Below are positions 21,946-62,585 of a stretch of 64,000 bases of DNA, one piece after another; the stretch's first letter is position 1, and each line of letters starts with the position of its first letter. Both the position numbers and the translations under genes were made by a program. Below the pieces are notes generated by a model. That model made no database searches and was not told the origin of the DNA. It saw only the letters and a list, made by a program, of their open reading frames with translations. The stretch is from Clytia hemisphaerica (lineage: Eukaryota > Cnidaria > Hydrozoa > Leptothecata > Clytiidae). The DNA lies in assembly GCA_902728285.1 (NCBI GenBank), contig CACVBU010000046.1, positions 62,001-126,000 of the forward strand, in the 5' to 3' direction.

Positions 21946-22911
21946 TTATGAATCAGGTTCCGGATTTACATTATTATGACATGCTCTTGTTATTTTTTGC
22001 CACGTCTTCTGAACATCTCTGACAAAGAATCGTTTCAGTTTTCGCATTGATTTCAAATACACGATTGGGTTAATTGCACAGTATAAAGTCCCAATAACCC
22101 AGTTAACCAAAATCCAAGTGTCATCAGAATTACTTGGTAATATTACAAGTTTGAAAAAGATCAACCCGACTACCGACACTACGACAATTGAAAAAACCGA
22201 CACAACAGTAACGTCGAAGTTGACTTTTTTACGGCGTCGTAAATCCTCAAGCTGTTCAGCTTTTTCACCGTGTAAGTAAGTAGTTAATGTTGTTAATTTT
22301 TTGATCTCTCGAAATGTTTCAAGTTTAATGTAGAATAAGGTGAAACAAATAAAGAAACTAGTAAGAAAGATAGTTATAGACAATATTAAATACGAGGAAT
22401 ATCGTTTCGGGACACCCAGGGTTTCTTTATCGGTGCGGTATTCGACCCCCATGATAATTCCATTACAAATACCAGCCGCTAACCAAGAAAACAAAATCAT
22501 TATAATGGAGATGCGACGTCGTGCGAAAAATTGATAAGTCAGCAAAAATCTGACGCTTAAAACACGATCGAAGGCTAAACAAGATGACGTGAATAGGGAA
22601 CATATAAACGCAATGCGGCCTGTCAATTGCGCTGTATTTAACATAACTTGATCTCCACCTGAAAAGACACCGATCAGCATGATTATCAAGGAGAACCATA
22701 CGTCACAAACACCGATATTAATCAGGAGATGGTACGGCGCGTAATTGAGTGCCGGATGCCGGTAAACAGTCCGTGCGATTAGCCCATGTCCGATTAAAGA
22801 CATAAGTCCAATGAAAACACAGACTGTCAGCCAACTTACTAAACTCCCGTTTGCGCTATTAATGCCATCGTCGGAAATATTTGTGCTATTTGACGTTGAA
22901 ATTGAAGACAT
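21946..22911 (-). CDS. Class A (rhodopsin-like) GPCR, copy 1
   Basis: Single-exon gene, 321 residues, with seven hydrophobic segments at about 24-47, 59-82, 92-115, 135-155, 172-195, 235-256 and 268-290. N-glycosylation sites (NST, NIS, NGS) mark the extracellular tail. Motifs are DRV in place of DRY after TM3 (CLAFDRVLSVRF), W in TM4 (FSWLAAGICNG) and NPIVY in TM7. The usual cysteine at the top of TM3 is not evident, so the TM3-ECL2 disulphide may be absent. No ligand class can be assigned; it belongs among orphan rhodopsin-like receptors expanded in invertebrates. The start is the only in-frame ATG before TM1 and follows a (CAA)6 leader. The paralogue at 37044 differs at 11 residues, all in the C-terminal half. 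Confidence 0.9.
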   Translation of the reverse strand: MSSISTSNSTNISDDGINSANGSLVSWLTVCVFIGLMSLIGHGLIARTVYRHPALNYAPYHLLINIGVCDVWFSLIIMLIGVFSGGDQVMLNTAQLTGRIAFICSLFTSSCLAFDRVLSVRFLLTYQFFARRRISIIMILFSWLAAGICNGIIMGVEYRTDKETLGVPKRYSSYLILSITIFLTSFFICFTLFYIKLETFREIKKLTTLTTYLHGEKAEQLEDLRRRKKVNFDVTVVSVFSIVVVSVVGLIFFKLVILPSNSDDTWILVNWVIGTLYCAINPIVYLKSMRKLKRFFVRDVQKTWQKITRACHNNVNPEPDS

Positions 22912-23490: not shown

Positions 23491-26417
23491 ATATATTGTT
23501 TTTTAAATCTCTCTTGGAGGTCTACCCGCGGGGCTCCATATTAATAAAAGCAAGAAAATCTTTCGAAATTTCTTCGCTCTTATTTCAATTTCAGTGAATT
23601 TACTTCCTTTACATACACCAGAGATTTGGGAAAAGAGGATAAGAATTGCGCTATTCAGCTATAGAAATATAGGCTAGGGAACCTTTTGTTCTATTGAAAT
23701 ATCTGCGCCCGATCGATTGTTTTAGTTCTGAACCAATCGGAGCGCTTGATTATACTATGCGCACAAGACTAGAAGTACAAACAAAAAATGGCAGCCGTGG
23801 TTGATATCGAAAGTGAAATAAAAATATTTTTAATATCGGGTATTTTGGTATTTTTTTATAAGCATTTTTCATTTTGGACAGGGCGGATACAGTGTTAGTC
23901 GAGCCAAAAACTTTCAGTTTTAGCCAAAATACTTTCCTCAAGGAATGCTCGAACCAATGTCACAGATTATATTGTAGAAATAGAAATAATTACTAGTGAA
24001 AAAGAATTTAAAATTCATTGCATTCAAACACAAAACGAAGCTGGTAAAACTAATATAGTTTTTCATTACTTCTCGGGCTAAAGTGTTTTGACAATCATAT
24101 AAAAAGAGCTAGCTAGGTTGAATATTAAAACAATGAAGGAGAAGGGAAAGAAAAAAACAGGACTAAAACAATAGCAATTCATGATATCAATGACAAGAAA
24201 TCAAAAATATCATGAATTTTTTTGTAAGAACTTTTTGAAGTTTACACAACAAAGCGAAAAATAATAGCAATATAAACCAGCCGAGGCTGGAAGGTCAGCC
24301 AATATAGTTAGATTATTAGTCGGATAGTTTGTAAAGAAGTTAAATAGCTGCGATGGAAGGAAGGACTAAATGCATAAAGAATCAAGCAAAATTGGAAAAC
24401 TTAATAGAGCTAGAAAATCTCATTTTGCCTAAATGTTTCTCCAGGTTACTCAAAACTCCTAGTAGTAAGATTGAATAGAAAATTAACATTCCGTATCTAA
24501 AGCATTTAAATTCAACTTTTAACATTTTGAAGATAAAGTTTCAATCAAAAATTTATGGACAAATCACAAAATTTTAGATATGTCCTGTTATAAACTTATA
24601 CAAAGGTTCTATCAAAAATTCAATTGACAGGTCACATAGACTGACCATTTACTTTTACAAATAGAAATAGTTTTTTTTTCAAATAATAGTTCATTATATT
24701 TATCCCAGCAGCATCATAAATCATCATAATCAAGCAAAACAAAACAATGCAATACGAAATGGTAAATGGACAAGTATAGATAACACTTATGATATCATTT
24801 TGATCACTTTCATTCACTGAGCGAAGAAACGTTATGAATTTCAAAATCAGCAACAAATAACTCTATTATGAACACAATTTAAATGGTCGTCAGTCGTTGG
24901 TTTTTCTTTGACGACAATTTGACAATGAACAGCATACCGATTGATTGAAACGAATACAATATGAAACTACTGTTGATCGTATATAATCTAGTAGAGAAAA
25001 CAAAAAATAAAAATAAAAGCTGATGATATAAACTTTCTAAGTTATTTGGTGAATGGAGACATTCAGCAAATGTAGGCAAATGTGACAGTTTCTTATGTAA
25101 GAAAATAGAAAAGCCTTCAGGTCTTAAATGTTTTGTAAGGTTTAATTAAATTACCTGAATGTACTTTGTAGCATCGACTTTGAGTTCGGAGTAACACAGT
25201 GACAATTGTTTACGAGTCATGACAGCCAAATGACAATTGATCGTTGATTGATAGCTAAAATAACAGAGTAAAATTAAAAGGCACTAAACTCCCCGATGTA
25301 TTTATTTGTATTTTCTTTTCGGAGAAAAAGTGTGATAAATTACTTCTTTTCGGAAATTGATAACCACTTCAATAGATTTTATACCAATTGTCTGTAAAAA
25401 TACCAACCATTGTTAAGAATATACCTATTTGTCAATTTTTTTAAGCAGAGAATCATAAATTGTGACTTTGAAGTATAGTACTCGAGTAGTATTCTCTCAA
25501 AAGTCTTACTAACCTTTTGTTTTTGTGACTTTTGTAGCATCTAGAGTTGCTGAATTTGGTGGTGTGGAATCAATGTTTATTCCAAGTTGCCAATGAATCA
25601 AAAACTTGTTTCTTTACTTTTAGGTTGCCTCATTCTACCAACGCTATTACGTAACAGGAATTAATACTACAACAAAACCATTAACAAATTACCAGCATCA
25701 TATCATACAAATGCCCATATATTTTCTCCAGCCAAGCATGTAATTTTAGTTACAGCAGAACGATTAACACGCAAATAATATTCCAGTCCAGTCCAACATA
25801 GTTTTAGTCCAGGGTTTTTATTTGTATTGTTCATTTTGTTAATTTTGTAACTCTAAATTTTGTATAAATTGATGAGTTGATTAAAAAATACTATAAAAAG
25901 TGTAAAAAGAATTTTCAAAAAAAAAATTAAAAAGTTAATGCGTATCATAATTCAATTTTTAACTAAAAAATGCACTATAAATATATAAAGAATGTACAAA
26001 ATTAATATTCCAATTTGATAGAAAAAAAATTCTTAAAATCCACATTTTTAAAATACTGTACATAAAATTATAAAAAATTATGTGACTGAGGAAAATGTCT
26101 TTTGCAACTAGTATCGTGTCCACTCAAAAGTGACAAGTGACGTTTTAAAGAAATTCATAACCATCCAAAAGATTAAAATTCACAAGAAAGTTTCTTTCCT
26201 TTAAAAGGCACTAAAAACCTTTTTAAGACAAATTCCTTATTGTCAGTTTTGATTTTTCTTTTCTAAGATAGATACGTAAGGGATGCAAAACTCATCAGAA
26301 TATGCTGTGATTTATTTATTTATAAATGTACTGAATCGACTTTATAATGAATATTAGAAACTTTACTCCTTGAAGAATTTTGTATCCCTTATGTATCCCA
26401 CCCTCCAAACTGTAACC
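23491..26417. other. AT-rich interval between GPCR copy 1 and the Helentron
   Basis: No convincing gene. A 37-codon frame at 23789 (MAAVVDIESEIK start, one hydrophobic segment) has no support. About 23610-23690 matches 36600-36713 in inverted orientation. Part of this stretch may be Helentron 3' non-coding sequence, but no end can be fixed. Confidence 0.5.
24272..24304 (+). repeat. 33-bp hairpin motif, copy 1
   Basis: ATAAACCAGCCGAGGCTGG then AAGGTCAGCCAATA is identical to 48704-48736. CCAGCC and GGCTGG form a short stem. The identical core stands out in otherwise unrelated sequence. Confidence 0.75.
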
Positions 26418-26433
26418 CCCCCCCCCATATCAA

Positions 26434-26505
26434 GCAGTTCAAGCAGTCCAAGCAGTCTAAGCAGTTCAAGCAGTTCAAGCAGTCCAAGCAGTTCAAACAA
26501 TTTAA
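26434..26505. repeat. 9-bp tandem repeat at the Helentron 3' end, 8 units
   Basis: TCAAGCAGT repeats with single changes (CCAAGCAGT, CTAAGCAGT) and the last unit overlaps the Helentron stop codon. A C-run precedes it at 26418. Confidence 0.85.
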
Positions 26506-29500
26506 GAATCACTCACAATAGTGAAACAAACTCCATCATGGTCGGAGAAATAAATATCCTTTATAAAGCAATTCACTTCTTTCTGGCTAATAAAACTTGT
26601 TTTTATATAAACATGGTCCAGAAGGCCACCAGCAAGATGAGTTGGTTCATTCACTATCATTTTGAATGAAGCAAGTATTTCGTTTAGGTCTTGATTTGTT
26701 GGATCTAGTGCATCAATATTGAAATCTCCCACAATAATGTCTACATCATCATAACTTGTCAGTTGCAATAGTTCTTCACGAAAAGTGTTTCTTGAAGAAT
26801 TAGGTGGTCTGTACAAGATTAAAAGGCTAATAGGTTGACTACTAAACGTCTCTTTTTTGAATTTTATCAATGTGTAACCTGCTGCTTTATTACACTCTAA
26901 AATTTGAATAGAAGAATTTGTGCAACATGCAGTGTTTTGAAAACGATTAATTGAATTGTTGTTATACTCAATATTAAAACTATTTAATGTTTGATCAATT
27001 CCACTAGTATCACTTGTAGGTGATAGCTGAGTTTCAGTAAGGCATAACAAGTCACTGTTCATTAAATTTTCAGATTTTTTTAGGTCAACAGCATGTTTAT
27101 ACATCGAGCGAATATTAAGAAGGGAGATATTTAAATACTTGGGAGAGGTAGAAACAGATGAAAAAGTTTGAACCTTTTGCAAACAACAACTTCTTCTCAA
27201 ACGTTCATATTCAAGCCCTGCTTCAGTGTTGACTCTGATAGCATTTCTACTATATTCACCAATTAAGAATAGTCCGTTTATGTCAGTTACCCTTGACAAA
27301 TTAACATACATTTGACCTTCATTGAAATATCTTTGACCAAATAACTCAAAGCTTACGACTGCTGATTGAAGTGTTAGCCCTTGGACTTTGTGACTAGTAC
27401 ATGCATACGATAGTATCAGTGGAAATTGAGTTCTTCTAACCATAGGTGACTTTTGCTTATTTTTTCTAGTCGCAAAGGTAGATTCTGCTCTTTCGATCAA
27501 AGTCCAATTGTTTTCTCTACATACACTATCCAAATTGGATCCTTTTTTACCTGCAGTGACATCATCAAGTTTTACATATAAACCAGATATTTTATTATTG
27601 CAATCAAATTTGAACCTCATAACTGTTCCAACTTGTCCATTGACTAATCTATCAGCAATGTCAATATTTTTTGATATCAAAACACGAGCACCTACTTTCA
27701 TTTCAATAATACGAGCTAAACCACCTGTATCTCTTGCTTTAGCATTTTCAATAAAATTCAAATCACTTCTTGTCAGATTTTTTGGTACCTCATCTTGTGC
27801 AGAAATTAGATGCTTTTCAGTCGGTAATTTTTCAAGCATTTGCAAATTGTATAAATCTACTGGCTTATTTTCTGCATAAATATGAGTTATATTAGCAGGG
27901 TAGTCTGGACTGTCTTTTGTAATGAATCTAGATTTTAAAAGTTCTTCTTTTTCTTCATCAAGTTCACCTAAACGTACTTGATTTAATAGATCTACAAAAT
28001 CTATATCATCTCTCTGTCTCATGACCTCAGTCAATTCTGCCATTTGGAAACTTCTCCATAATTCAAATCCGACAATACTTTGCATAGATGAACAATCAGC
28101 TTTGTAAATTGGATCTCTATAAATTGGTGGGAGTTGATACAAATCACCACAAAGTAAGACCGATTTTCCACCAAAAGGTTTATCAGAACTGAATATTTCA
28201 CGTAACCTTGAATCAATATTTCGAAATAAGCGACTAGGTACCATGGAAATTTCATCTATCATTATAATCTCAACGCAAGCAAGTTTTTTTTGCAAATTTT
28301 GTTTTGACATAGCATTCAAGGGAAATAGCTTTTTTGTAGGAATAATCAAACCAGTGTGAATTGTGGTTCCATTGACATTGATCGCTGCTACACCTGTTGG
28401 GGCAAGCACAAGAATCCTTTGTTTAGTAGGTTCTCCTCCTCTGTACATTAAAAGTTTAGACAATGAGTGATAAATTGTTGTAAGTAAATGGCTTTTTCCC
28501 ACGCCTCCGCCACCGGTTAAGAAAATATGGAATGGCTCTACAATTTTAGGATCTTTAGAAGACAGGTTTTTTACAAAATTTCTTCCCCATTTGTGTATTA
28601 CATCAAAAACTTCTCTCTGTTGAGGATTAAGAGATCTTATACGAGTATTTATTTCATTATCAGGAAGCAAAATAGATTCCATTGGTATTGCTGCCCTAAA
28701 TGGTACTGTGTCTTCATTAGCTTCATCATCTGATTCATCATTATTATTTGCAGTATTACTTTCAAGCTCAGCATTTGTTTCATCATTTTCCTGCTGTTCA
28801 AAGTCATTCATATTGAGCGTGATGTCAGTTCTAAACCTTACTAATGCATCATCTACTAAACCAGAATATGGTTGGATCAAAGCTCTGTTCCTTTCAATCA
28901 TTTCTACAACACCTGGTTCAAATAGTTTCTGTGTGTAAGAATTGTGTTCCTGAGAAAGTAACTCATTTTCATTACGAAAAGGATAATATAACATTAACAG
29001 ATGATGAGCATAATCTTCGGGGTGCTTGTTTCTATTTGGCTCATGAAGACGGAGTACTAATGGAACTTTACGACATTTTAGTTTATCTCGACTGGACAAG
29101 AGTGGAACAATATTTGGGTACCCATTTGTTGGATGATTTGATTCAACTAGATCATCTACAAGTTCATTGGGCTGGCAATCATTTTCTTTATTCTCTACAT
29201 ACATGATACTATAAAACCTCAAAAATTCAGCATAACACATGTTTGAAACAGACACATAAATTCCATTAGCATAGTTGTTGGTTGGTCTATCACAATATCG
29301 GTCTAGCATATTCTTTTTGAATATCGAGGTACTATCTTCAGGAAGCTCACTTATTTCATTTTCACTAAGGCACATTCTAAATCTTTTCTCTGGTACATTG
29401 GTGTTTGCAAAGGTTACACCTGGAAATACTTTTCTTAGCCATAATTCAGGCATGCTAAGATATACAGCTTCTTGCACCGATACTTCCCGTTTTGAAACAT

Positions 29501-32500
29501 AAGCATGCGCAATAGATTTCATTTGCTGATATTTGTCTAAATCGTTTTCGAATGCTTCTTGAACAGCTTGGTTCATAGCATGAGACACTTCATCTTCAGT
29601 TTTGGACAGATATGCACACATGTAAGTAACAGCCTTGTAATAATTAAATACCGGCTGAATATCCAGATTTGCTTGCCAAGCTTTCAGACCCTCAGTAAAA
29701 TAATTGTTTACAAAACACGCATTTGAATCACGCTTCAAATATAGGTGAAAATCATCATCTTCAGATACTGACAGAGCATATTCATAATCATTCTTGGGAA
29801 TATCTAATTCATTAAGTATTTCATCTATGGTTGGAACAGGACTGAAATTTTCAGCATCTGGGTTAAAAAAATTTCTTTTACTTGGATTAAGATTTTCATT
29901 TATATATGTCCTTACTTTACTTAATACTTCTTTTCTCAGTGACAGTATTGTTCGTTTTTGCTCTTGTGGCAATTCTTGTGGCAAAGGCTCTGAAACAATA
30001 GTTCTCTCAGAAAAAAATTTGCCGAAATGAAATCTACAAGGCGTATTTTTATATTTACGACAAGTTTTCGAATGACGATGTAATTGATAGGTTTTTACAA
30101 GGTTAAACAATTCTGGATCTTCTTGTTGTGATGGTAAACAAACTTTAATTATTTTATCAACAAATTCTACGTATTCAGATTTTGTTTCCGGAGTTAATGT
30201 TGGCGCATTCAAAATCCAAAGAAAAGAATGAATATGAGGGCTTCCACGTACTTGAAATTCAACCCGAATAGCATAATAAGTTGTTTTGCCAAGTGGACCA
30301 TCTAAAACAATTTCTTTAAAAAATACTTCAACTCTATATTGAAAATGCCTTGCTACTAGAACAGGATTGCTATTTAACAAATCACACCTTTCATGATAAG
30401 AAAGATTCTCAATAAATTCGTTAGTAACATTTTGACCCTTGAGTTTGTAAATTATGGAGATCAATTCATTCCATCTTAGATCAGCACAGCTTAAAGTCAA
30501 AAAGAAAGTTGGTGGCCCTAATTGTTTAACCATTGCCAAAACTTCTTGCTGAAATTTTTTCCAATATGCTGGAGTTCCTTTAACTGTACTCATAAAAGCA
30601 AAGGCTTTGTCATTTGCAATAAATTGTTTCACTGTTTCTTTGAAATTTTGACTTAACATTCCCGCATTTAAATTAGAGGCTGCAACTTTTCTCATGGCAA
30701 CATTTATTTGACTGGTCAAAGAGACTTGTTGAATCACAGAGTTAGCAAAAAATATGTAGTCTGGATCAGAGGCAAATTTTTGAGTATAGTTCAATAATCG
30801 TTGGTTAAAGTACTTTGAGGGACTCAATTTAACATTGCGTTGAACGTTGAATCCAAATTTACCTTTGGGAAACAAATGAGGATGGGCAAGCATTTCACAA
30901 TTTTCATCATTCAAAATAGAAATTGGTTTTTTCCCTTGACCAGGTGCTAATGTTAAAATTTCATTATCTATTTCTGTTTCAGTGGGAGTATGGGACATAA
31001 GAGTTGTTTCATTTGCACTTGAGCGAAACACGTCAAGTGGGTTTGCTGTTGTCTCAAGTTCTAAAACTGAAGTGTCATTTTGTGTTCTGCTACCCTCATC
31101 AGAAATTTCTTCGTTATCATTGCTGGCTGTATTAATGTTAGTAACATCTGTATTATTTCCCACCATAGTTTCATCATCAGAAATGTTACTGACATCAATC
31201 ACTATGTCTTGATAAAGAGGATTGTTATCTTTTAAATAATTTAACATTTGCTGAACAAAATCAGGCCTAATTGCCTCAAAAATTACATGTCCCTTATATT
31301 CTAATTTTCTTTTAAGTTTAACTATGACAAGACCATTATCACTAGTTTTTCTTGGCAGGGTATTAGCAATATCTTCTATGTCAATTGGAACATTACAAAT
31401 TGACCCTTTTAACTTGGGAAACTGACCTTTTGGCATTATTGCAATTTTCTTAAATAAAATTCTACGAGAAATTAAAACCTTTTCAAGTCTGCGAAGAGTA
31501 CTGAATTCAGTTGGTAGTTCATCAAGGCTTAGTTTGTTTTTAACTGACTGACATGGTAAATTATCTTTTTTGAGCTTATTGTGGCACGTTTTGCAAATAT
31601 ACAGTTTCCCATCGAAAGAAATTACTTCTAAACAATAATCATCTTCTGGCATGTTGTATTTTTCAGGAGAAAATTTAGCAACTGAACGTCGATATAGACA
31701 TCTGTGGCAAGAAACGCATATGTAAAAAGGACCTTCATATATAATTTTTTTAAATCTTTTCACTGGGTCATCAGACTGCTTAGCAGATTTTTTTTTTTGA
31801 GCATTAATTTTTTGCTTCTCTTTTAGAGTGTCCTTATTTCTTTTGTAGTAAACTCTTTTATTTTCCCTTATCTTCTCTTTGTTTTGTTCATTATAAGCTT
31901 TTTTGTTTGCACTTATCTTTTCTTTGTTTTGTTCATGATAGGCTTTATTGTTTTCATTTATCTTTTCTTTGTTTTGTTCATTATGAGCTTTTTTGTTTTC
32001 ACTTATCTTTTCTTTGTTTTGTTCATGATAGGCTTTTTTGTTTTCACTTATCTTTTCTTTGTTTTGTTCATGATAGGCTCTATTGTTTTCATTTATCTTT
32101 TCTTTGTTTTGTTCATGATAGGCTTTCTGGTTTTCATTTATTTTTTCTTTGTTTTGTTCATGATAGGCTTTATTGTTTTCATTTATTTTTTCTTTGTTTT
32201 GTTCATAATAGGCTTGATTGCTTTGCTGACGTGTTTTTTGTCGCTTTCTGGTATTTCCATCAGCACAATTATTTTTACGTTTTTTAGGTGCCGCACTGGA
32301 ATTTTTCTTTACAAATCGAGAATAACTTAGTTGAAGAATCCTTTTGAGCTCTTCACTTGGTTCATTAATTTGAATAAATTGGATTTGAAAATGTTGAAAT
32401 TCTTTTTCCCGAAACTCTAAATAAAAAAACTTAACATATTTTTCAAGTTCAAAAATATTATCAAACTTTAAAAGGCACGAAGCTCCATCTCCATTTTCAA

Positions 32501-33371
32501 CTAGTAATCCACGGCTGTCCCGGCTGTGTGAATCAAAGACAAAGAAACATTGGGACCTTTTCATAATAGCTATAGTAAAACCACCAATAATCATTAAGGT
32601 ATTAAATTCAGGACTTTGAGTAGTACTCAGTGGAATTTGAAGCGTGGGGTAGTCATCAATTAGTTTAGCTTCGCCAGTCTCTAAATTTAAAAAGTCAAGT
32701 TCGGTGATAATACCGTTAGTTTCGATAAATCGTGGCATTTCATCGACAGATAAATAATCATTTGTATTCAACAACTTATACAACCTATCACCTTCAATTA
32801 AAATTCTATCTAGGTCTGTAGTTTTCCAAATAGAAACACGTCGAAAATGAGACCAGAATATCGCATACAAAGAATTTGCACTACATTGTGTTCCTGCGGT
32901 TTGCCCAAATAAATCTATGTTAGCCTGGTTAAAGGAACCTAAAACAGCTTTAGATACTTGATAATTGGTCATTTCTGACCCTTGATCACTTTTGTTTTCT
33001 TTAGTTGTTCTTGGACCTGGGTTTAGTTCAATATCACCTGATAATAGAAGGGTATAATTAACTTTGAGAAAAATAAGGTTTGGATCTCCTGAATTAAATG
33101 CTGCATTTGGATATTGAAAAAAAATACCATTTTTTGAAAGATGGACAAAATCTAGGTGTGTCTGAAAAAAGGTTGTCTCATACGACTTTGGAATTGCAAA
33201 GAAAAGAAGTGCAAAAAGGGCTAAAAATCTGATTGGTTTCAATAGTTTAGTAAAAGCATTGTCTGAAAGGTTAGAACCAATTTTAATAGATTTAGAAATA
33301 CCTTTCACATTTTTCTGAGCTGTTAGAGCAAAACTTCCTATACACACACGATATGCCTCTATAGATATCAT
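26502..33371 (-). CDS. Helentron Rep/helicase/endonuclease polyprotein with 2A-like leader and C76-like peptidase
   Basis: 2289 residues, no interruption. Residues 1-120 form a leader with a hydrophobic run (FLALFALLFFAI, about 49-60) ending in a 2A-like motif, GDIELNPGP (112-120). Residues 138-335 resemble the herpesvirus-tegument-type/C76 cysteine peptidase fold found in some mobile-element proteins: GTQCSANSL (Cys163), DLDRILIEGDRLY and VFDSHSRD (His282). Residues 387-521 are eight 15-residue AYHEQNKEKINENNK-like repeats plus a degenerate ninth. Residues 546-596 carry CxxC pairs (CVSCHRC, CKTCHNK), DUF6570-like. Helitron N-terminal and HUH Rep domains span about 810-1260, with GSPHIHSFLW (His1046, His1048) and two tyrosines in TYMCAYLSK (1250, 1254). 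The PIF1-type helicase has Walker A GGGGVGKS (1620-1627), DEIS (1706), GDLYQLPP and SHKVQGLTL. Residues 2080-2289 are an endonuclease: LNIRSM, LTETQL, GDFNID and SDHDGV. Rolling-circle transposition is the expected role. The start is the first ATG of the open frame. Confidence 0.92.
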   Translation of the reverse strand: MISIEAYRVCIGSFALTAQKNVKGISKSIKIGSNLSDNAFTKLLKPIRFLALFALLFFAIPKSYETTFFQTHLDFVHLSKNGIFFQYPNAAFNSGDPNLIFLKVNYTLLLSGDIELNPGPRTTKENKSDQGSEMTNYQVSKAVLGSFNQANIDLFGQTAGTQCSANSLYAIFWSHFRRVSIWKTTDLDRILIEGDRLYKLLNTNDYLSVDEMPRFIETNGIITELDFLNLETGEAKLIDDYPTLQIPLSTTQSPEFNTLMIIGGFTIAIMKRSQCFFVFDSHSRDSRGLLVENGDGASCLLKFDNIFELEKYVKFFYLEFREKEFQHFQIQFIQINEPSEELKRILQLSYSRFVKKNSSAAPKKRKNNCADGNTRKRQKTRQQSNQAYYEQNKEKINENNKAYHEQNKEKINENQKAYHEQNKEKINENNRAYHEQNKEKISENKKAYHEQNKEKISENKKAHNEQNKEKINENNKAYHEQNKEKISANKKAYNEQNKEKIRENKRVYYKRNKDTLKEKQKINAQKKKSAKQSDDPVKRFKKIIYEGPFYICVSCHRCLYRRSVAKFSPEKYNMPEDDYCLEVISFDGKLYICKTCHNKLKKDNLPCQSVKNKLSLDELPTEFSTLRRLEKVLISRRILFKKIAIMPKGQFPKLKGSICNVPIDIEDIANTLPRKTSDNGLVIVKLKRKLEYKGHVIFEAIRPDFVQQMLNYLKDNNPLYQDIVIDVSNISDDETMVGNNTDVTNINTASNDNEEISDEGSRTQNDTSVLELETTANPLDVFRSSANETTLMSHTPTETEIDNEILTLAPGQGKKPISILNDENCEMLAHPHLFPKGKFGFNVQRNVKLSPSKYFNQRLLNYTQKFASDPDYIFFANSVIQQVSLTSQINVAMRKVAASNLNAGMLSQNFKETVKQFIANDKAFAFMSTVKGTPAYWKKFQQEVLAMVKQLGPPTFFLTLSCADLRWNELISIIYKLKGQNVTNEFIENLSYHERCDLLNSNPVLVARHFQYRVEVFFKEIVLDGPLGKTTYYAIRVEFQVRGSPHIHSFLWILNAPTLTPETKSEYVEFVDKIIKVCLPSQQEDPELFNLVKTYQLHRHSKTCRKYKNTPCRFHFGKFFSERTIVSEPLPQELPQEQKRTILSLRKEVLSKVRTYINENLNPSKRNFFNPDAENFSPVPTIDEILNELDIPKNDYEYALSVSEDDDFHLYLKRDSNACFVNNYFTEGLKAWQANLDIQPVFNYYKAVTYMCAYLSKTEDEVSHAMNQAVQEAFENDLDKYQQMKSIAHAYVSKREVSVQEAVYLSMPELWLRKVFPGVTFANTNVPEKRFRMCLSENEISELPEDSTSIFKKNMLDRYCDRPTNNYANGIYVSVSNMCYAEFLRFYSIMYVENKENDCQPNELVDDLVESNHPTNGYPNIVPLLSSRDKLKCRKVPLVLRLHEPNRNKHPEDYAHHLLMLYYPFRNENELLSQEHNSYTQKLFEPGVVEMIERNRALIQPYSGLVDDALVRFRTDITLNMNDFEQQENDETNAELESNTANNNDESDDEANEDTVPFRAAIPMESILLPDNEINTRIRSLNPQQREVFDVIHKWGRNFVKNLSSKDPKIVEPFHIFLTGGGGVGKSHLLTTIYHSLSKLLMYRGGEPTKQRILVLAPTGVAAINVNGTTIHTGLIIPTKKLFPLNAMSKQNLQKKLACVEIIMIDEISMVPSRLFRNIDSRLREIFSSDKPFGGKSVLLCGDLYQLPPIYRDPIYKADCSSMQSIVGFELWRSFQMAELTEVMRQRDDIDFVDLLNQVRLGELDEEKEELLKSRFITKDSPDYPANITHIYAENKPVDLYNLQMLEKLPTEKHLISAQDEVPKNLTRSDLNFIENAKARDTGGLARIIEMKVGARVLISKNIDIADRLVNGQVGTVMRFKFDCNNKISGLYVKLDDVTAGKKGSNLDSVCRENNWTLIERAESTFATRKNKQKSPMVRRTQFPLILSYACTSHKVQGLTLQSAVVSFELFGQRYFNEGQMYVNLSRVTDINGLFLIGEYSRNAIRVNTEAGLEYERLRRSCCLQKVQTFSSVSTSPKYLNISLLNIRSMYKHAVDLKKSENLMNSDLLCLTETQLSPTSDTSGIDQTLNSFNIEYNNNSINRFQNTACCTNSSIQILECNKAAGYTLIKFKKETFSSQPISLLILYRPPNSSRNTFREELLQLTSYDDVDIIVGDFNIDALDPTNQDLNEILASFKMIVNEPTHLAGGLLDHVYIKTSFISQKEVNCFIKDIYFSDHDGVCFTIVSDS
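31854..32213. repeat. 45-bp in-frame coding repeat, 8 units
   Basis: Each unit encodes 15 residues of the AYHEQNKEKINENNK type, linking the peptidase-like and zinc-ribbon-like parts of the Helentron protein. A ninth degenerate unit follows. The unit length is a multiple of three, so copy number can vary without breaking the gene. Confidence 0.9.
33012..33050 (-). other. 2A-like ribosome-skipping motif
   Basis: Codons 108-120 read LLLSGDIELNPGP. The core D-x-E-x-NPGP is the known 2A signature, in which the peptide bond between the final Gly and Pro is skipped. The split would release a 119-residue hydrophobic leader and a 2170-residue protein starting with Pro120. Activity is inferred from the motif alone. 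Confidence 0.85.
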
Positions 33372-33447
33372 ATTGCAGTTCTGTAAGCTTTAGCAAAAGT
33401 AGCGTGGAGCGTTTTCAAAAAGTATATGAATATTTGTATAGGTACGG

Positions 33448-33612
33448 ATTTTCCTTCGCACAAGTTTCTAGGTGCGGATTTCCCTTCGCACAAGTTTCTA
33501 GGTGCGGATTTCCCTTCGCACAAGTTTCTAGGTGCGGATTTCCCTTCGCACAAGTTTCTAGGTGCGGATTTCCCTTCGCACAAGTTTCTAGTTGCGGATT
33601 TCCCTTCGCACA
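33448..33612. repeat. 30-bp minisatellite upstream of the Helentron gene
   Basis: Five to six units of TTCGCACAAGTTTCTAGGTG then CGGATTTCCC, the central ones identical. All six frames stay open across it, giving spurious ORFs. It lies 80 bp upstream of the Helentron ATG, so it could be part of its leader or promoter. Confidence 0.9.
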
Positions 33613-33689
33613 ATTCAATATTATAATAGTCAATTTAATTTGATTCAATAATAGTTTGTATATATACAGTAAGTTCAGTAGATATAATA

Positions 33690-33734
33690 GGTTCAAGGTT
33701 AAGCAGGTTAAGCAAGTTTAGTAGGTTAAGTAAG
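33690..33734. repeat. 9-bp tandem repeat at the Helentron 5' side, about 5 units
   Basis: GTTAAGCAG units (variants GTTAAGCAA, GTTTAGTAG, GTTAAGTAA) in the same orientation as, and clearly related to, the TCAAGCAGT array at the other end of the element. Confidence 0.75.
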
Positions 33735-33775
33735 CTTTGTAAGAGGATGCAAGGAGCTCGCATGCAACCTCTGGG

Positions 33776-35300
33776 TTTTGTAGCTGCTTGTCTGATATTG
33801 AACACAGACAAGCTTATGCTATCTTTTCTTTGTAGCTTATGCAACTGAGGTAAAATTACAATTGCTGCTATCTTTTTTTAAACACTAATAAAAAGCCAGT
33901 ACACTGTTAAAAAAGGCAGGAAAGAAATCTCACCTTGATGATTGAAAAAGTGTACAAATTGTCATTCCAGCAAAAGCAGCCTAATCTTGCTTTTAATTTT
34001 CACAACTGTAGTGGCAACTTATTGGGAAGCTAATACATTTAGCAGAAAAATAATGCTATCATGAATACAGAGATAGCGCATTATTCGGGAGATAAAAAAA
34101 GCTGATGCAATAATCCCAATGGCTGATGCAATCGCGCGCGTTTTTTATCCCGGTGTTTACTCGAAAAGAAATCCGTGCAAATATCGGGAAATCGGATTTT
34201 TTTTTTGCCGTCTTATGATGATGGAGGAACTGGAAGAAAATTTTGCCTATTTGAATGCTCAGCTTAGGCTGACCAATAATACAAAACAGTAGCATACATT
34301 AAAAACAAAAATTATATAAAAATCTTTATTTGGTCGCGTTTGTTGTAATAACAAAAAATAATAATAAACTGGTTAAATTTCTGGATTAATTTTTTGATTC
34401 TTGTTATGTCAATTTTATTTGTCTTATTGCTTCCAAAAAGTTACTTAAATAATTGCAAGAAAATTAATTACAATAAAAAAACTTTGACTTGATCCTTCCT
34501 CACTAAAAGCACCTTGGAAAATAAACATATATTGTGAAACAGTATATGAAAAATCGGTCACTCTTGGATTTAGGGGGGGGCTCACTAATTCCAATAGAGG
34601 TGTGATTCTAAGATAAAAAGCAATTTACCCTTTCAAATAAAATTTTAGAGAAAAAAAGTATGAATATAACCAGACTGTTCATCAATGCTCAAGAAAAGAG
34701 TATTTCATAAGATGAATAATTATATAATGTGATGTATGAAAATAGTCCAGTGTCCACTTCCAATTCCAAACTGGAATTTCTATTTAAAGCATTTTTTATA
34801 TCTATATGGTTGGTTCATATCAATTATCTTGTAATTGTAGTCTAGCCCCATTCTGGTGTCTTGTTTGGGACTATTTGCGTAATCAAGCAGGAAATCCTGG
34901 TGAAACAGGGATAAAAAGACCTTAATCCAACTGCAAACAAACCATGACATCAGATTCCATTGTTGTTTCCTTTGAGTTTAAACATGCTTTTCACCTGTCC
35001 ATCTTATTAGCAGAATTTGTTGGTGTTTGCAAAGATATTGAACCTTGTACGTGAGAAATTCAGACAAATTTTAAGCCAATTCTCATTGTATACCAACCAC
35101 GTGAAGGTACAAAATAATTCATGGATCTAGGTTACTGGGGCAGTATGATGGTAACTAACCTGAAAGTATATAATAATGAAAATGGGAATTAGGATTTTTG
35201 CAGCAAGCTCTCATGAACAAATACAGAACACAAACAACAAATCTTAATTCCACCGACCACAGACAAAAATCGGTGAAATAAATCTTATATAACTGGAAAA
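33776..35300. other. Intergenic, AT-rich, mostly unexplained
   Basis: No coding frame recognised. The only repeat identified is at 34188-34285. Confidence 0.5.
34188..34285. repeat. Dispersed repeat shared with 51726-51821
   Basis: Both copies contain AATCGGATTTTTTTTTTGCC then GTCTTATGATGA, and end with GAATGCTCAGCTTAGGCTGA then CCAAT. The last part can form a small stem. Confidence 0.75.
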
Positions 35301-35772
35301 TCTATTAACCGGTCAGAGCCAATCTATTAACCTGTCAGAGCCAATCTATTAACCGGTCAGAGCCAATCTATTAACCGGTCAGAGCCAATCTATTAACCTG
35401 TCAGAGCCAATGTATTAACCGGTCAGAGCCAATCTATTAACCGGTCAGAGCTAATCTATTAACCGGTCAGAGCCAATCTATTAACCTGTCAGAGCCAATG
35501 TATTAACCGGTCAGAGCCAATCTATTAACCGGTCAGAGCTAATCTATTAACCGGTCAGAGCCAATCTAAACCGGTCAGAGCCAATCTAAACTGGTCAGAG
35601 CCAATCTATTAACCGGTCAGAGCTAATCTATTAACCGGTCAGAGCCAATCTAAACCGGTCAGAGCCAATCTACTAACCGGTCAGAGCCAATCTATTAACC
35701 GGTCAGAGCTAATCTATTAACCGGTCAGAGCCAATCTAAACCGGTCAGAGCCAATCTACTAACCGGTCAGAG
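35301..35772. repeat. 22-bp satellite, 22 units, with higher-order structure
   Basis: The unit TCTATTAACCGGTCAGAGCC plus AA repeats 22 times. Variants are CCTGTC, TGTATT, GAGCTAA, a 20-bp form lacking two bases, and TCTACTAA. They recur as four-unit blocks: units 5-8 equal 9-12, and units 15-18 equal 19-22. Each unit centres on the palindrome ACCGGT. Confidence 0.95.
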
Positions 35773-36962: not shown

Positions 36963-38600
36963 TCCTATATTACCACTAATAAAGATTAAATTTAAAGAAA
37001 TGAATTATGTAAATACAATTCAATATTTTGTACAAATATATCGTTATGAATCAGGTTCTGGATTTACATTATTATGACATGTTCTTGTTATTTTTTGCCA
37101 CGTCTTTTGAACATCTCTGACAAAGAATCGTTTCAGTTTTCGCATTGATTTCAAATACACGATTGGGTTGATTGCACAGTATGAAGTCCCAATAACCCAG
37201 TTAACTGAAATCCAAATTTCATCAGAATTACTTGGTAATATTACAAGTTTGAAAAAAATCAACCCGACTACCGACACTACGACAATTGAAAAAACTGACA
37301 CAACAGTAACGTCGAAGTTGACTTTTTGACGGCGTCGTAAATCCTCAAGCTGTTCAGCTTTTTCACCGTGTAAGTAAGTAGTTAATGCTGTTAATTTTTT
37401 GATCTCTCGAAATGTTTCAAGTTTAATGTAGAATAAGGTGAAACAAATAAAGAAACTCGTAAGAAAGATAGTTATAAACAATATCAAATGCGAGGAATAT
37501 CGTGCCGGGACACCCAGGGTGTCTTTATCGGTGCGGTATTCGACCCCCATGATAATTCCATTACAAATACCAGCCGCTAACCAAGAAAACAAAATCATTA
37601 TAATGGAGATGCGACGTCTTGCGAAAAATTGATAAGTCAGCAAAAATCTGACACTTAAAACACGATCGAAGGCTAAACAAGATGACGTGAATAGGGAACA
37701 TATAAACGCAATGCGGCCTGTCAATTGCGCTGTATTTAACATAACTTGATCTCCACCTGAAAAGACACCAATCAGCATGATTATCAAGGAGAACCATACG
37801 TCACAAACACCGATATTAATCAGCAGATGGTACGGCGCGTAATTGAGTGCCGGATGCCGGTAAACAGTCCGTGCGATTAGCCCATGTCCGATTAAAGACA
37901 TAAGTCCAATGAAAACACAGACTGTCAGCCAACTTACTAAACTCCCGTTTGCGCTATTAATGCCATCGTCGGAAATATTTGTGCTATTTGACGTTGAAAT
38001 TGAAGACATTTTTGTTGTTGTTGTTGTTGTTGTTAAATTTCAATTTAAAGATTTCTTCTACTAAAAAATAAGATTCTCATATTAGTATGGCACCTGAAAT
38101 TTCAGGGTCAAAGAAGGAACATTACTTTGCATGGCATTAATCATTCATCAAAGAAGGAACTCTTCTTTTAATGGCTGAAAGGTTTTCTAGAATAAATAAA
38201 CATTCATATGGATCCCGTTTTCTTTTTCCCACTTGAGACTCCGCTTGTGAAAACGCAAAAAAGCTGCACATTTTCGACCCAGAAAAGATATCAATGAAGC
38301 TGACCAGAAGAGTACTAGAAAGCCACTGAATACGTCTCGCCTTAAATGTACGTGCACACAACTTTTTAGAAGAAAAAAACAAAACGTGCCAGAATTTTCT
38401 ATTGAAATTTGAAAATTGAATAATAGATTTTTTTCATATCCAAATTATTATTAATTAATATATTATTTATTTTATCTTATTACTCTATATTTTTATTGAT
38501 AATGACAGTTTTGACGTTTTTTTCTGAAACTATATTTAGTAAGATTGAATTTCAATCATAAAACTTAACTTTTGAATTATAGCTCCTTCCTACCACTCAT
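36963..38600. repeat. Segmental duplication, copy 2 (GPCR-bearing)
   Basis: Matches 21861-23490 directly over about 1.63 kb. It differs by point changes, a (CAA)7 instead of (CAA)6, and an extra roughly 40-bp segment near 38117-38156 bounded by a repeated TCAAAGAAGGAAC. Confidence 0.9.
37044..38009 (-). CDS. Class A (rhodopsin-like) GPCR, copy 2
   Basis: Single-exon, 321 residues, full length, same seven segments, DRV and NPIVY motifs as the copy at 21946. The first 160 residues are identical to copy 1. The 11 replacements (for example KRYSSYLILS to ARYSSHLILF, and DDTWILVN to DEIWISVN) fall in ECL2/TM5, ICL3 and ECL3/TM7, with one in the cytoplasmic tail. Both copies are intact, so both may be expressed. 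The (CAA)7 leader precedes the ATG at 38009. Ligand unknown. Confidence 0.9.
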   Translation of the reverse strand: MSSISTSNSTNISDDGINSANGSLVSWLTVCVFIGLMSLIGHGLIARTVYRHPALNYAPYHLLINIGVCDVWFSLIIMLIGVFSGGDQVMLNTAQLTGRIAFICSLFTSSCLAFDRVLSVRFLLTYQFFARRRISIIMILFSWLAAGICNGIIMGVEYRTDKDTLGVPARYSSHLILFITIFLTSFFICFTLFYIKLETFREIKKLTALTTYLHGEKAEQLEDLRRRQKVNFDVTVVSVFSIVVVSVVGLIFFKLVILPSNSDEIWISVNWVIGTSYCAINPIVYLKSMRKLKRFFVRDVQKTWQKITRTCHNNVNPEPDS

Positions 38601-58561: not shown

Positions 58562-60310
58562 AATCTATTTTTTGTCAAATAATTTTCTCGACATTCATCG
58601 TCAAATGATTTTCTTTTTTCGTCAAATGTTTTTTTTGATTTTTTCGTCAAATATTTTTCCCAACATTTTTTGTCAAACGCTTTTCTTTTTTCGTCAAATG
58701 TTTTTTTCATTTTTTTGTCAAATGTTTTTCTCAATTTTTCGTCAAATGTTTTTCTCAATTTTCGTCTAATATTTTTCGCAATTTTCGTCAAATGTTTTTC
58801 TCAAATTTTCGTCAAACTTTTTTCTTTTTTCGTCAAACGTTTTTCGCAATTTCCGTCTAATATTTTTCTCAATTTTTTGTCAAATGTTTTTCTCAATTTT
58901 TCGTCAAATGTTTTTCTTTTTTCGTCAAATGTTTTTCTCAATTTTTTGTCAAATGTTTTTTCGCAATTTTCGTCAAATATTTTTCTCAATTTTTCGTCAT
59001 AAACGTTTTATTTTTCGTCAAATGTTTTTCTCAATTTTTTGTCAAATGTTTTTGGTAATTTTTGTCAAATATAAAGATAAGTTCTTTTTTCGTCAAACGT
59101 TTTTCGCAATTTCCATCTAATATTTTTCTCAATTTTTTGTCAAATGTTTTTCTCAATTTTTCGTCAAATGTTTTTCTTTTTTCGTCAAATGTTTTTCTCA
59201 ATTTTTTGTCAAATGTTTTTCGCAACCTTCTATGCCAAATGTTTTTCTCAATCTTTATGTCAAATGTTTTTCTCAACCTTTATGTCAAATGTTTTTCTCA
59301 ACCTTTATGTCAAATGTTTTTCTCAACCTTTATGTCAAATGTTTTTCTCAACCTTTATGTCAAATGTTTTTCTCAACCTTTATGTCAATGTTTTCTCAAC
59401 CTTATGTCAAATGTTTTTCGCACCCTTCTATGTCAAATATTTTCTCACTCTTTATGTTCAAATTTTTTCTCAACCTTTATGTCAAATGTTTTTCTCAACC
59501 TTTATGTCAAATGTTTTTCTCAACCTTTATGTCAAATGTTTTTCTCAACCTTTATGTCAAATGTTTTTTCACCTTTATGTCAAATGTTTTTCTAAACCTT
59601 TATGTAAATGTTTTTCTCAACCTTTATGTCAAATGTTTTTCTCAACCTTTATGTCAAATGTTTTTCTCAATCTTTATGTCAAATGTTTTTCTCAACCTTT
59701 ATGTCAAATGTTTCCAAATCTATTTTACTGTCAAACAGTATTTTACTTAACATTTTTAGTCATTTTTTGTCAAATGTTTTTCGTCAAATAATTTTCTCGA
59801 CATTCATCGTCAAATGATTTTCTTTTTTCGTCAAATGTTTTTTCATTTTTTTGTCAAATGTTTTTCTCAATTTTTCGTCAAATATTTTTCTCGACATTTT
59901 TCGTCAAACGCTTTTCTTTTTTCGTCAAATGTTTTTTTCATTTTTTTGTCAAATGTTTCTCTCAATTTTTCGTCAAATGTTTTTCTCAATTTTCGTCTAA
60001 TATTTTTCGCAATTTTCGTCAAATGTTTTTCTCAATTTTTCGTCAAACGTTTTTCTTTCTTCGTCAAATGTTTTTCGCAATTTTCGTCTAATATTTTTCT
60101 CAATTTTTTGTCAAATGTTTTTCTCAATTTTTCGTCAAACGTTTTTTTTTTTCGTCAAATGTTTTTCTCAATTTTTTGTCAAATGTTTTTCGCAATTTTC
60201 GTCAAAAATCTTTCTCAATTGTTTTGTCGAAGGTTTTTCTTAACATTCTTCGTCGAATGTTTTTCTCAACCTTTATGCCAAATGTTTTTCTCAATCTTTA
60301 TGTCATTCAT
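58562..60310. repeat. ~25-bp minisatellite array with subfamilies, about 1.75 kb
   Basis: The unit is TTTTTCGTCAAATGTTTTTC plus TCAA. The central block (about 59220-59710) is a homogeneous subfamily with CAACCTTTATGTCAAATG. The left block (58576-59000) is repeated as a whole at about 59780-60220, and 58820-58980 recurs at about 59090-59230. The scarcity of stops creates long false ORFs in several frames. Confidence 0.95.
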
Positions 60311-61325: not shown

Positions 61326-62585
61326 ATCAAACAAATTTTGAAAAAGAAGACTTCAAAGAAAACGACTGTCTTTGTTAAATTGAATAACGCCAACATCGAG
61401 GAGGAGCAGGGCACAAATTGTGCTAGAAGTGACATCGAGGCTAGTGGGAACATCGTCATATTAAAAGACAAATATCACGATATAATGGAAAACGTTAGTG
61501 CAAAGAGCGAGGTTAAGTGTGACGTCATGGGTAGTAGTGACATCGCCAAATTTAAAGAAAATCTTCATAACGTAATGGGAAACCCTGGTGCGGAGTTTGA
61601 CGTTAAACGTAGCGTCACGGAGTTTGGGGATGTTGAATTCAAAGACAATTACCGCGACGTAGCGGAAAATCTTGGTGCGGAATTTGACGCTAAGCATGAC
61701 GTCACGGAGAGCAAGAATGTCGTCAAATTGAAAGACAAATATCACGATATAATGGAAAACGCTAGTGATAAGAGCGACACTAAGCGTGACGTCACGGAGA
61801 GTGAGGACATCGCTAGATTAAGAAACAATATCCATGACGTATTGGGGAACGATGATGCAAAAAGTGACGTTAAGCGTGACGTTACAGCGAGTGGGGACGT
61901 CGGCAGATTAAAAGACAATCACTGCGACGTGATGGGAAACAATGTTTTGGAGTTTGACGCTAACTGTGCCGTCACGGAGAACGGAAACATCTTCAGATTA
62001 AATGACAAACATCACGATGTGAGTGAAAAGGTTCCTTCAGAAAGCGACATTAACATTAAAACATTAAAAGACCACGACAAGAAGCAGTTCGTGCTAATAG
62101 GGGACGACGCATCGACGACAGTTAACAAGACAGTATGTCAACAAGATCTGAAGGTAGGTGGAAGGAGTGAATTTGAAAATATCTCATGGGAATTTGATAA
62201 TTCGACGAGTAATTTTGAGGATAGCGTTGGTAGAAGTAAACAAGATTATCCGTGGGAATTTGCTAATATGGCATGTAAATGTGAGAATACCGGATTTAAA
62301 TTTCAGGATATTGTTGCAAGAAAATTTGAACAGTTGAGTTGTTTTGAAAATAATGTCAGTAATATCGAAGATAACTCGCTTCAATTTGAAAATAACGAAA
62401 ATAAATTTGAAGATGGCTCGCGCAAATTTCAAAATATTGACAATAATACTGAAGAGAGTGAAGAAGCCGCGAATATCGAACATCCAAAAGCCAAAATTCT
62501 GACTCCGCCATCTTTGTTTATGTTTCCCAAGTGTGCAAAAGTGAAAGTAGCAGCAACGACACAAAAACAGACATCTCGCACTTGA
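61326..62585 (+). CDS. Low-complexity 30-residue-repeat protein, unidentified
   Basis: A frame of about 419 codons is open from 61326 to TGA 62583 but has no ATG until about 61482, so the true start is either there or in an unseen upstream exon. About six 30-residue repeats follow the pattern RLKDxxHDVMxNxxAxxDVK plus RDVTESxDI. They are followed by a second region with FENxx/FEDxS repeats every 8-11 residues (SEFENISWEF, LQFENNENKFEDGS). It is acidic with no membrane segment and no known domain. A diverged piece of the beginning is duplicated at 61145-61253. The opposite strand is also open for long stretches, so the region could be a coding-like minisatellite; confidence is moderate. Confidence 0.45.
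   Translation: MKQILKKKTSKKTTVFVKLNNANIEEEQGTNCARSDIEASGNIVILKDKYHDIMENVSAKSEVKCDVMGSSDIAKFKENLHNVMGNPGAEFDVKRSVTEFGDVEFKDNYRDVAENLGAEFDAKHDVTESKNVVKLKDKYHDIMENASDKSDTKRDVTESEDIARLRNNIHDVLGNDDAKSDVKRDVTASGDVGRLKDNHCDVMGNNVLEFDANCAVTENGNIFRLNDKHHDVSEKVPSESDINIKTLKDHDKKQFVLIGDDASTTVNKTVCQQDLKVGGRSEFENISWEFDNSTSNFEDSVGRSKQDYPWEFANMACKCENTGFKFQDIVARKFEQLSCFENNVSNIEDNSLQFENNENKFEDGSRKFQNIDNNTEESEEAANIEHPKAKILTPPSLFMFPKCAKVKVAATTQKQTSRT

Follow-up and report, generated by a model that had tools for sequence, protein, structure and literature searches.

We analyzed a 64,000-nucleotide stretch of the Clytia hemisphaerica genome (GenBank assembly GCA_902728285.1, contig CACVBU010000046.1, positions 62,001–126,000 of the forward strand), hereafter the window, which carries on its minus strand a Helentron, a rolling-circle DNA transposon with one long open reading frame (ORF). 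The first 120 residues of the encoded protein end in a 2A/StopGo ribosome-skipping sequence that stands shortly ahead of a viral-tegument-like deubiquitinase (VTD). Other copies and genomic loci are labelled L, and homologous proteins P. The features concerned are as follows:

25078..34276, minus strand: Helentron copy, with its 5' end at 34276 beginning TTGGTCAGCCTAAGCTGAGC..., placed from alignments to six other copies; 25078 is a provisional 3' limit
26502-33371, minus strand: single ORF of 2,289 codons from its ATG, encoding leader-2A, VTD, DUF6570, Rep, PIF1 helicase and an apurinic/apyrimidinic (AP)-type endonuclease
33012..33371, minus strand: leader and 2A, residues 1-120, read from the ORF translation
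33330..33353, minus strand: YRxxIGxF box, residues 7-14 (YRVCIGSF)
33189..33245, minus strand: hydrophobic segment, residues ~43-61, mean Kyte-Doolittle value 1.94
33012..33035, minus strand: 2A core DIELNPG/P, residues 113-120, with the predicted skip at G119/P120 and the P120 codon ending at 33012
32973..33011, minus strand: 13-residue linker after the 2A (13 residues in L022 as well, 20 in every other intact copy that could be read, an in-frame difference of 7 codons)
32970..32972, minus strand: Met134 ATG, probable former start codon, where similarity to leaderless sister copies starts
32367..32951, minus strand: VTD deubiquitinase, residues 141-335, from Pfam Herpes_teg_N and from sequence and fold matches to PDB entry 8add

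Residues 1-120 close with TLLLSGDIELNPGP, in which TLLLSG is followed by DIELNPG/P and the skip point falls within N117-P118-G119/P120. DIELNPGP fits the core (D/G/C/N)(V/I)ExNPGP as defined in PMC12846837, and the upstream hexapeptide TLLLSG belongs, by eye, to the LLLLSG-like class described there. This confirms that the leader ends in a canonical 2A/StopGo sequence. A preliminary description of the window had proposed a 2A-like motif at the end of a 119-residue hydrophobic leader, placed so as to free the transposase; its coordinates and leader length are exact, and the proposal is supported by the canonical core and the hydrophobic stretch. The coding frame is uninterrupted on both sides of the 2A in the window copy and in L002, L003 and L004, and is broken in L067. 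The core is kept in all 7 of the subfamily copies that were found by protein search and have a readable leader sequence.

We collected relatives by searching 5.8 billion proteins with Rep residues 820-1320 only, so that the N-terminus played no part in the collection; counts out of 120 refer to the best 120 of 438 matches. NPGP was present in 44 of the 120, each time in a 2A core known to work. Two proteins held two copies, and of the resulting 46 copies 45 fit (D/G/C/N)(V/I)ExNPGP; the remaining copy carries T at p12, for which 88.5% activity is reported (PMC12846837). The pattern D.E.NPGP occurred 43 times in the 220,840 residues of the 120 homologues, against 0.003 expected from composition. 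Its position was nearly constant, the P and the VTD being 4-10 residues apart in 42 of the 44 NPGP proteins; P0072 has 13 residues from the P to an OTU domain, and the exception, P0124, has 396 before its detected VTD. The 2A leader is thus a recurrent Helentron feature, unseen in the preliminary description, which had suggested aligning the N-termini of related Helentrons.

Among the 76 census proteins without NPGP, 17 are predicted to start with a Met no more than 30 residues from the VTD, three have a longer N-terminus without a 2A, 11 have a VTD that is truncated at its beginning and 45 have no VTD by our own profile, the last two groups (56 of the 120) being uninformative on the leader. 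The enzyme should therefore have nearly the same predicted N-terminus in 2A-bearing and 2A-less proteins, a Pro or a Met a few residues before the VTD. LOC130648243 of Hydractinia symbiolongicarpus (P0040) carries a 2A; another Hydractinia protein (P0069) and a sea-urchin protein (P0135) do not. P0063, from a eukprot source, has leader, 2A and VTD, and its TCONS name would suggest that it is a transcript from Clytia.

At least two leader types were recognized. One has YRxxIGxF near residue 7 (14 of 44), in most cases with a hydrophobic segment by eye; the other has, by eye, a YKNxNH-like stretch before the 2A, and the sequence next to its 2A is not hydrophobic, although the core is still kept. 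The YRxxIGxF box was found in 16 of 136 proteins, at residue 7 in 15 and at residue 19 in P0046, and all 16 have NPGP. A separate profile search with words from the first 500 residues, 2A included, was excluded from the counts and shows only that OTU-type proteins with a 2A exist. Two proteins (P0095 and P0107) carry a tandem pair of 2A cores, ~70 residues apart, ahead of the VTD. Relatives in viral contigs were rejected as candidates: 13 loci match the K/E/N-rich repeat region only, and the alignment search gave 81 pattern matches and no relative.

The presence of the 2A is labile across the Rep tree. Over 80 rows, which include three proteins from a 2A-biased search (P0008-P0010, all 2A) and nine leaderless Clytia rows whose state was assigned by our own reading, 2A and no-2A states change at least eight times, at least five of these changes being forced by well-supported branches. 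One clade of 29 members is entirely 2A-bearing.

In the 417 Mb Clytia assembly, a degenerate DNA pattern for D(V/I)ExNPGP matched 361 sites, and the same pattern reversed matched none. Together with the 43 occurrences against 0.003 expected in the homologues, this rules out a chance match of the NPGP core. Thirty sites, the first in contig order, were read. Fifteen precede VTD-Helentrons of three families, four of them (L060, L065, L067, L071) being interrupted shortly past the 2A and assigned from the leader. Two (L055, L072) precede a deubiquitinase of the USP type (Pfam UCH, E 1e-28 and 5e-27), after which comes a Helentron-like K/E/N-rich stretch, and are probably Helentrons with a third kind of deubiquitinase; Rep was not seen within the 1.5 kb read. 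The other 13 belong to types of retrotransposon without long terminal repeats (non-LTR), and in six of these the 2A is followed by a zinc-finger-like stretch; we confirmed the endonuclease for L047, L056, L062, L064, L066 and L073 and assigned the others by eye from resemblance. Recognizable mobile elements hold 28 of the 30 sites and probably the other two as well, and no host gene was evident among the 30. As a rough aid, the core strings of 100 listed sites were compared: 11 are identical to that of the window, and 47 of the 70 unread sites have strings absent from the 30 read.

The domain following the 2A was called cysteine-peptidase-like in the preliminary description; its sequence and modelled fold identify it as a VTD, with ubiquitin cleavage predicted. 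Pfam Herpes_teg_N covers residues 146-285 (E 1.6e-8), and the sequence also matched PDB 8add (E 6e-10), an entry titled "Viral tegument-like DUBs" whose molecule is named "ATP-dependent DNA helicase" and which presumably represents the zebrafish Helitron VTD described in PMC9741609. An AlphaFold model built with 25 sequences matched the folds of 8add (E 3.5e-16) and cytomegalovirus M48 (E 3.2e-12), with high confidence over residues 141-340 (ten-residue means 85-98) but not over the leader, and below 50 at residues 115-130 around the skip point. Q149, C163, D280 and H282 are invariant in the 25-sequence alignment. In zebrafish DrT1-VTD2, which has equal D-x-H spacing, the C, D and H mutants are called inactive, and three zebrafish Helitron VTDs cleave ubiquitin, so VTDs in Helentrons were already known (PMC9741609).

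Selection on the leader was measurable in another Clytia Helentron family, family c (L054, L058, L070), alone, the copies of the window subfamily being too alike. Leader and body there show synonymous divergences of 0.26/0.22, 0.44/0.40 and 0.38/0.43, and the ratio of nonsynonymous to synonymous divergence (dN/dS) is 0.12-0.15 in the leader against 0.14-0.18 in the VTD region. The corresponding ratio of nonsynonymous to synonymous differences (pN/pS) in the leader is 0.14-0.17 in the three comparisons, with bootstrap upper 95% limits of 0.28-0.34. Because these ratios and limits are low, the family c leader is a constrained peptide under purifying selection and not a spacer.

Around the leader the window DNA is a mosaic. 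The leader is 70-73% identical in protein to that of family c (87/119, 84/117, 85/120, 84/120), whereas the VTD regions are 37-39% identical. Its DNA is 74-77% identical to seven family c loci over at most 33374-33010; this similarity starts at 33374 in four loci and ~20 bases later in three, and stops at 33011 or 33010, at most two bases past the NPGP codons. Leaderless sister copies instead match the window DNA upstream of 33696 and downstream of 32972 (87% and 84% in L008). Alignments to L008, L014 and L015 begin exactly at 32972, and L008 has 85 bp in place of the 723 of the window copy. Thirteen stretches, taken from 11 leaderless places, showed no trace of a former leader, the only match being 15 residues of L017 (E 2.6). 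These alignments are most simply read as an insertion of leader and 2A in front of an earlier start codon, Met134, a reading that we consider likely, and the module was probably grafted from a family resembling family c.

The remaining features of the element are:

33439..33613, minus strand: 30-bp tandem array of 5.8 copies (TRF), upstream of the leader and unmatched in leaderless sister copies
31856..32215, minus strand: in-frame 45-bp repeat inside the ORF, 8 copies, YHEQNKEKINENxKA-like
31182..31565, minus strand: DUF6570, Pfam E 1.8e-18
30225..30812, minus strand: Helitron_like_N (Rep), Pfam E 2.3e-35
27945..28535, minus strand: PIF1-type helicase, Pfam E 7.3e-33
26529..27134, minus strand: C-terminal AP-type endonuclease, residues 2080-2281, by our own profile (sub-threshold in Pfam, E 0.0079)

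The ORF has the make-up of a Helentron, with Rep and PIF1 helicase in one protein and an AP-type endonuclease fused C-terminally, and its Rep region finds its best database matches in sequences named Clytia hemisphaerica. The alignments to the six other copies begin at 34277-34282, where the shared 5' sequence was inspected, and these copies have, like the window copy, a small hairpin at this 5' end (TCAGC-CTAA-GCTGA, by eye), with one substitution in L067. On the 3' side three loci align as far as 25078, and two more reach 24981 and 24951, their own limits.

The preliminary description likened the endonuclease to CR1-type enzymes and suggested that both ends of the protein came from a non-LTR element. 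Our profile groups the window endonuclease with clear non-LTR endonucleases. In the endonuclease phylogeny that the description had called for, a quick tree from which matches shorter than 130 residues were dropped, the 78 Helentron proteins group together on a single branch that leaves out the 10 non-LTR proteins (support 97), a topology that would fit one old acquisition. Pfam detected no reverse transcriptase in the ORF, which does not have the identity of a CR1-type non-LTR element. A single non-LTR source for both ends was not established, the closest match found for the leader DNA lying in another Clytia Helentron family. From the single endonuclease branch, its published affinity to CR1 and the leader comparisons, the two ends have different histories, the endonuclease old and stable and the leader labile.

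In the general 2A mechanism, the growing peptide makes the ribosome stall, no Gly-Pro bond forms and translation resumes at the Pro (PMC12846837). Applied to the Helentron, a ribosome would start at Met1 and make the 119-residue leader with its YRxxIGxF box and hydrophobic segment. The nascent TLLLSGDIELNPG would then block the Gly119-Pro120 bond, the leader would be released, and the ribosome would continue into the VTD deubiquitinase-Rep-helicase-endonuclease enzyme with Pro120 as its first residue. The outcome would be an enzyme with about the same N-terminus as in 2A-less relatives that begin at a start codon, plus a separate leader peptide. In the sea-urchin SpNLR2A, incomplete skipping diverts some of the protein (PMC4981915); by analogy, incomplete skipping here would probably send a minority of leader-attached enzyme to membranes, and the leader could limit active transposase. 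The leader-2A module was probably grafted from another Clytia Helentron family onto an ORF that formerly started at Met134. We put at about 0.8 the probability that the N-terminus is a translational-recoding leader that frees the enzyme by 2A skipping, with the module probably grafted. What the analysis shows directly is the anatomy of the module, its recurrence and position, selection against change in the leader of the donor-like family, and the mosaic DNA; skipping as such, what becomes of the leader and the direction in which the module moved are inferences.

Several observations weigh against this reading. Met134 is in frame and could be used directly. Of the 64 census proteins whose N-terminus is informative, 20 lack a 2A, and some of the predicted starts in the census may be wrong, being gene-caller choices. 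Ten leaderless Clytia places could be read upstream: in seven, an in-frame ATG lies further upstream and would open a Leu-rich extension without NPGP; in L009 and L017 the only Met adjoins the VTD, and L019 has no in-frame Met upstream. Some 2A reactions are inhibited when the preceding stretch lies in the translocon, which could apply to a hydrophobic leader, and inhibition of the 2A reaction in cells is reported for some proteins that carry a signal (PMC2978324). As to the graft, synonymous divergence between the window subfamily and family c is lower in the leader than in the body in all four comparisons (proportion of synonymous differences, pS, 0.39-0.52 against 0.66-0.72; the 95% intervals exclude zero, one barely), but the body approaches saturation and the four comparisons have one sequence in common and are not independent, so that the graft is likely and not proven. 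Outlying relatives in the Rep tree differ, P0003 and P0005 having a 2A and P0002, P0029 and P0030 none, and gain and loss of the leader are therefore not separable with certainty.

The transposase might instead usually be made from Met134, through a shorter transcript or leaky scanning, with NPGP a passenger of a captured leader. The similarity to leaderless sisters that starts at Met134 and the 17 of 120 relatives with a predicted Met start near the VTD would fit this. A passenger, however, would decay, and the core is kept in 7 of 7 subfamily copies and in 44 of 120 homologues with at least two dissimilar leader types; the linker, moreover, varies between copies by seven whole codons with the frame intact. 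We therefore consider a routine bypass of the leader improbable. Very improbable, in our judgement, is that skipping is inefficient in the cell and that the leader, still joined to the enzyme, acts chiefly as its membrane anchor or signal. The hydrophobic segment of the window leader and of many YR-box leaders agrees with an anchor, as does the reported inhibition of 2A by translocon-passing sequences (PMC2978324), but a membrane-bound helicase-transposase would make little sense, and the second homologue group keeps the core without a hydrophobic stretch next to it.

Two further alternatives concern where the module came from. The leader may have descended vertically with the body and look young through stronger constraint. 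The family b leader is also nearer to the window leader (34/72 residues) than its VTD is to the window VTD (62/195), and the more distant relatives P0003 and P0005 bear a 2A. Against this, leader and body within family c have about equal synonymous divergence and similar dN/dS, yet pS towards the window subfamily is lower in the leader than in the body, and the leaderless places examined hold no leader relic; vertical descent is in our view unlikely. The module could also derive from CR1/L2-type non-LTR retrotransposons, as the preliminary description proposed, a possibility that we regard as real though doubtful. Clytia non-LTR leaders of the form MGVSLSQYRACIGFFN...LSGDIEVNPGP resemble those of Helentrons, and four have the YRxxIGxF box. 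In 64 hand-picked leader pairs with the 2A core removed, shuffling gave p ≤ 0.02 in 30; a family b Helentron leader can be aligned, through residues 2-72 and with its 2A, to L051 and L064 at 37% identity (E 1.7e-4 and 5.4e-4, in a small database), and the Helentron endonuclease has been called closest to CR1 (PMC4067079). Against this origin, 28 of the 64 pairs had p > 0.05, including all pairs with P0003, P0039, P0059, P0102 and P0105 and 12 of 16 with L047; other Helentron leaders are of a different type, and the leaders are too short for direction to be read, leaving transfer either way or convergence. One CR1-like endonuclease-reverse transcriptase protein with an N-terminal 2A (P0019) is filed under an Acidobacteriaceae metagenome-assembled genome and is probably eukaryotic contamination.

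More tentatively, the leader-2A might be an exchangeable translational cassette of two unrelated classes of mobile element, a conjecture that we hold to be plausible at somewhat less than even odds. Such a cassette would pass from one Helentron family to another, breaking at the skip point, precede VTD, OTU and USP domains (the last in a probable Helentron) and recur on non-LTR elements; the freed leader would be a selected peptide serving the element, and the efficiency of skipping would set the amount of transposase.

Odon et al. reportedly described N-terminal 2A-like sequences of APE-type non-LTR retrotransposons in 2013, and some non-LTR retrotransposons in Clytia share the YRxxIGxF box with Helentron leaders. 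The 2A/StopGo sequences of picornaviruses and other RNA viruses have the same core D(V/I)ExNPG/P and L-rich hexapeptide (PMC12846837); the viral ones lie inside a polyprotein, whereas that of the Helentron ends an N-terminal leader in a rolling-circle DNA transposon. Sea-urchin NLR proteins likewise have an N-terminal 2A-like sequence with a hydrophobic leader (Roulston et al. 2016, PMC4981915), although SpNLR2A has 26 residues against the 119 of the Helentron leader. The protein to be freed also differs, being a deubiquitinase-Rep-helicase-endonuclease in the Helentron and an endonuclease-reverse transcriptase or an NLR in the non-LTR and sea-urchin cases. Published VTD/OTU Helentrons (Thomas et al. 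2014, PMC4067079; Erven et al. 2022, PMC9741609) have the same Rep, PIF1 helicase, C-terminal AP endonuclease and VTD catalytic residues; the window copy differs in its 2A leader ahead of the deubiquitinase, and in Clytia L055 and L072 a USP-type domain also follows a 2A.

The main texts of these two papers contain none of the terms "skipping", "NPGP", "2A-like" or "2A peptide". A 2A review contains neither "Helitron" nor "transpos", and a recoding review does not mention "Helitron" in its accessible portion. The 2A itself, N-terminal 2A leaders and VTD-Helentrons are thus each known, and neither a Helitron-2A link nor their regular combination was found in the open literature, which did not extend to the main eukaryotic 2A survey (Rao et al. 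2025), so that prior notice is possible.

Ribosome skipping has been described as largely viral and rare in cellular genes (PMC12846837). Here a deep DNA-transposon lineage bears a 2A motif whose position ahead of a deubiquitinase hardly varies, and because of this and of the 361 sites in one jellyfish genome, transposon proteins constitute a large natural set for 2A study. Members of one family that have either a 2A leader or a start codon in its place provide matched natural pairs for probing the purpose of the leader.

Two ORFs for rhodopsin-type receptors (Pfam 7tm_1; 21946-22911 and 37044-38009, minus strand) flank the Helentron and are identical at 310 of 321 residues, which suggests a local gene duplication with the Helentron between the copies. 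Two adjacent plus-strand ORFs (61485-62585 and 62644-63660), neither with a Pfam match, contain the same 42-bp repeat consensus and are apparently a tandem duplication. The window also holds tandem arrays at 35299-35772 (22-bp unit, ~22 copies) and 58567-60305 (24-25-bp unit, ~70 copies).

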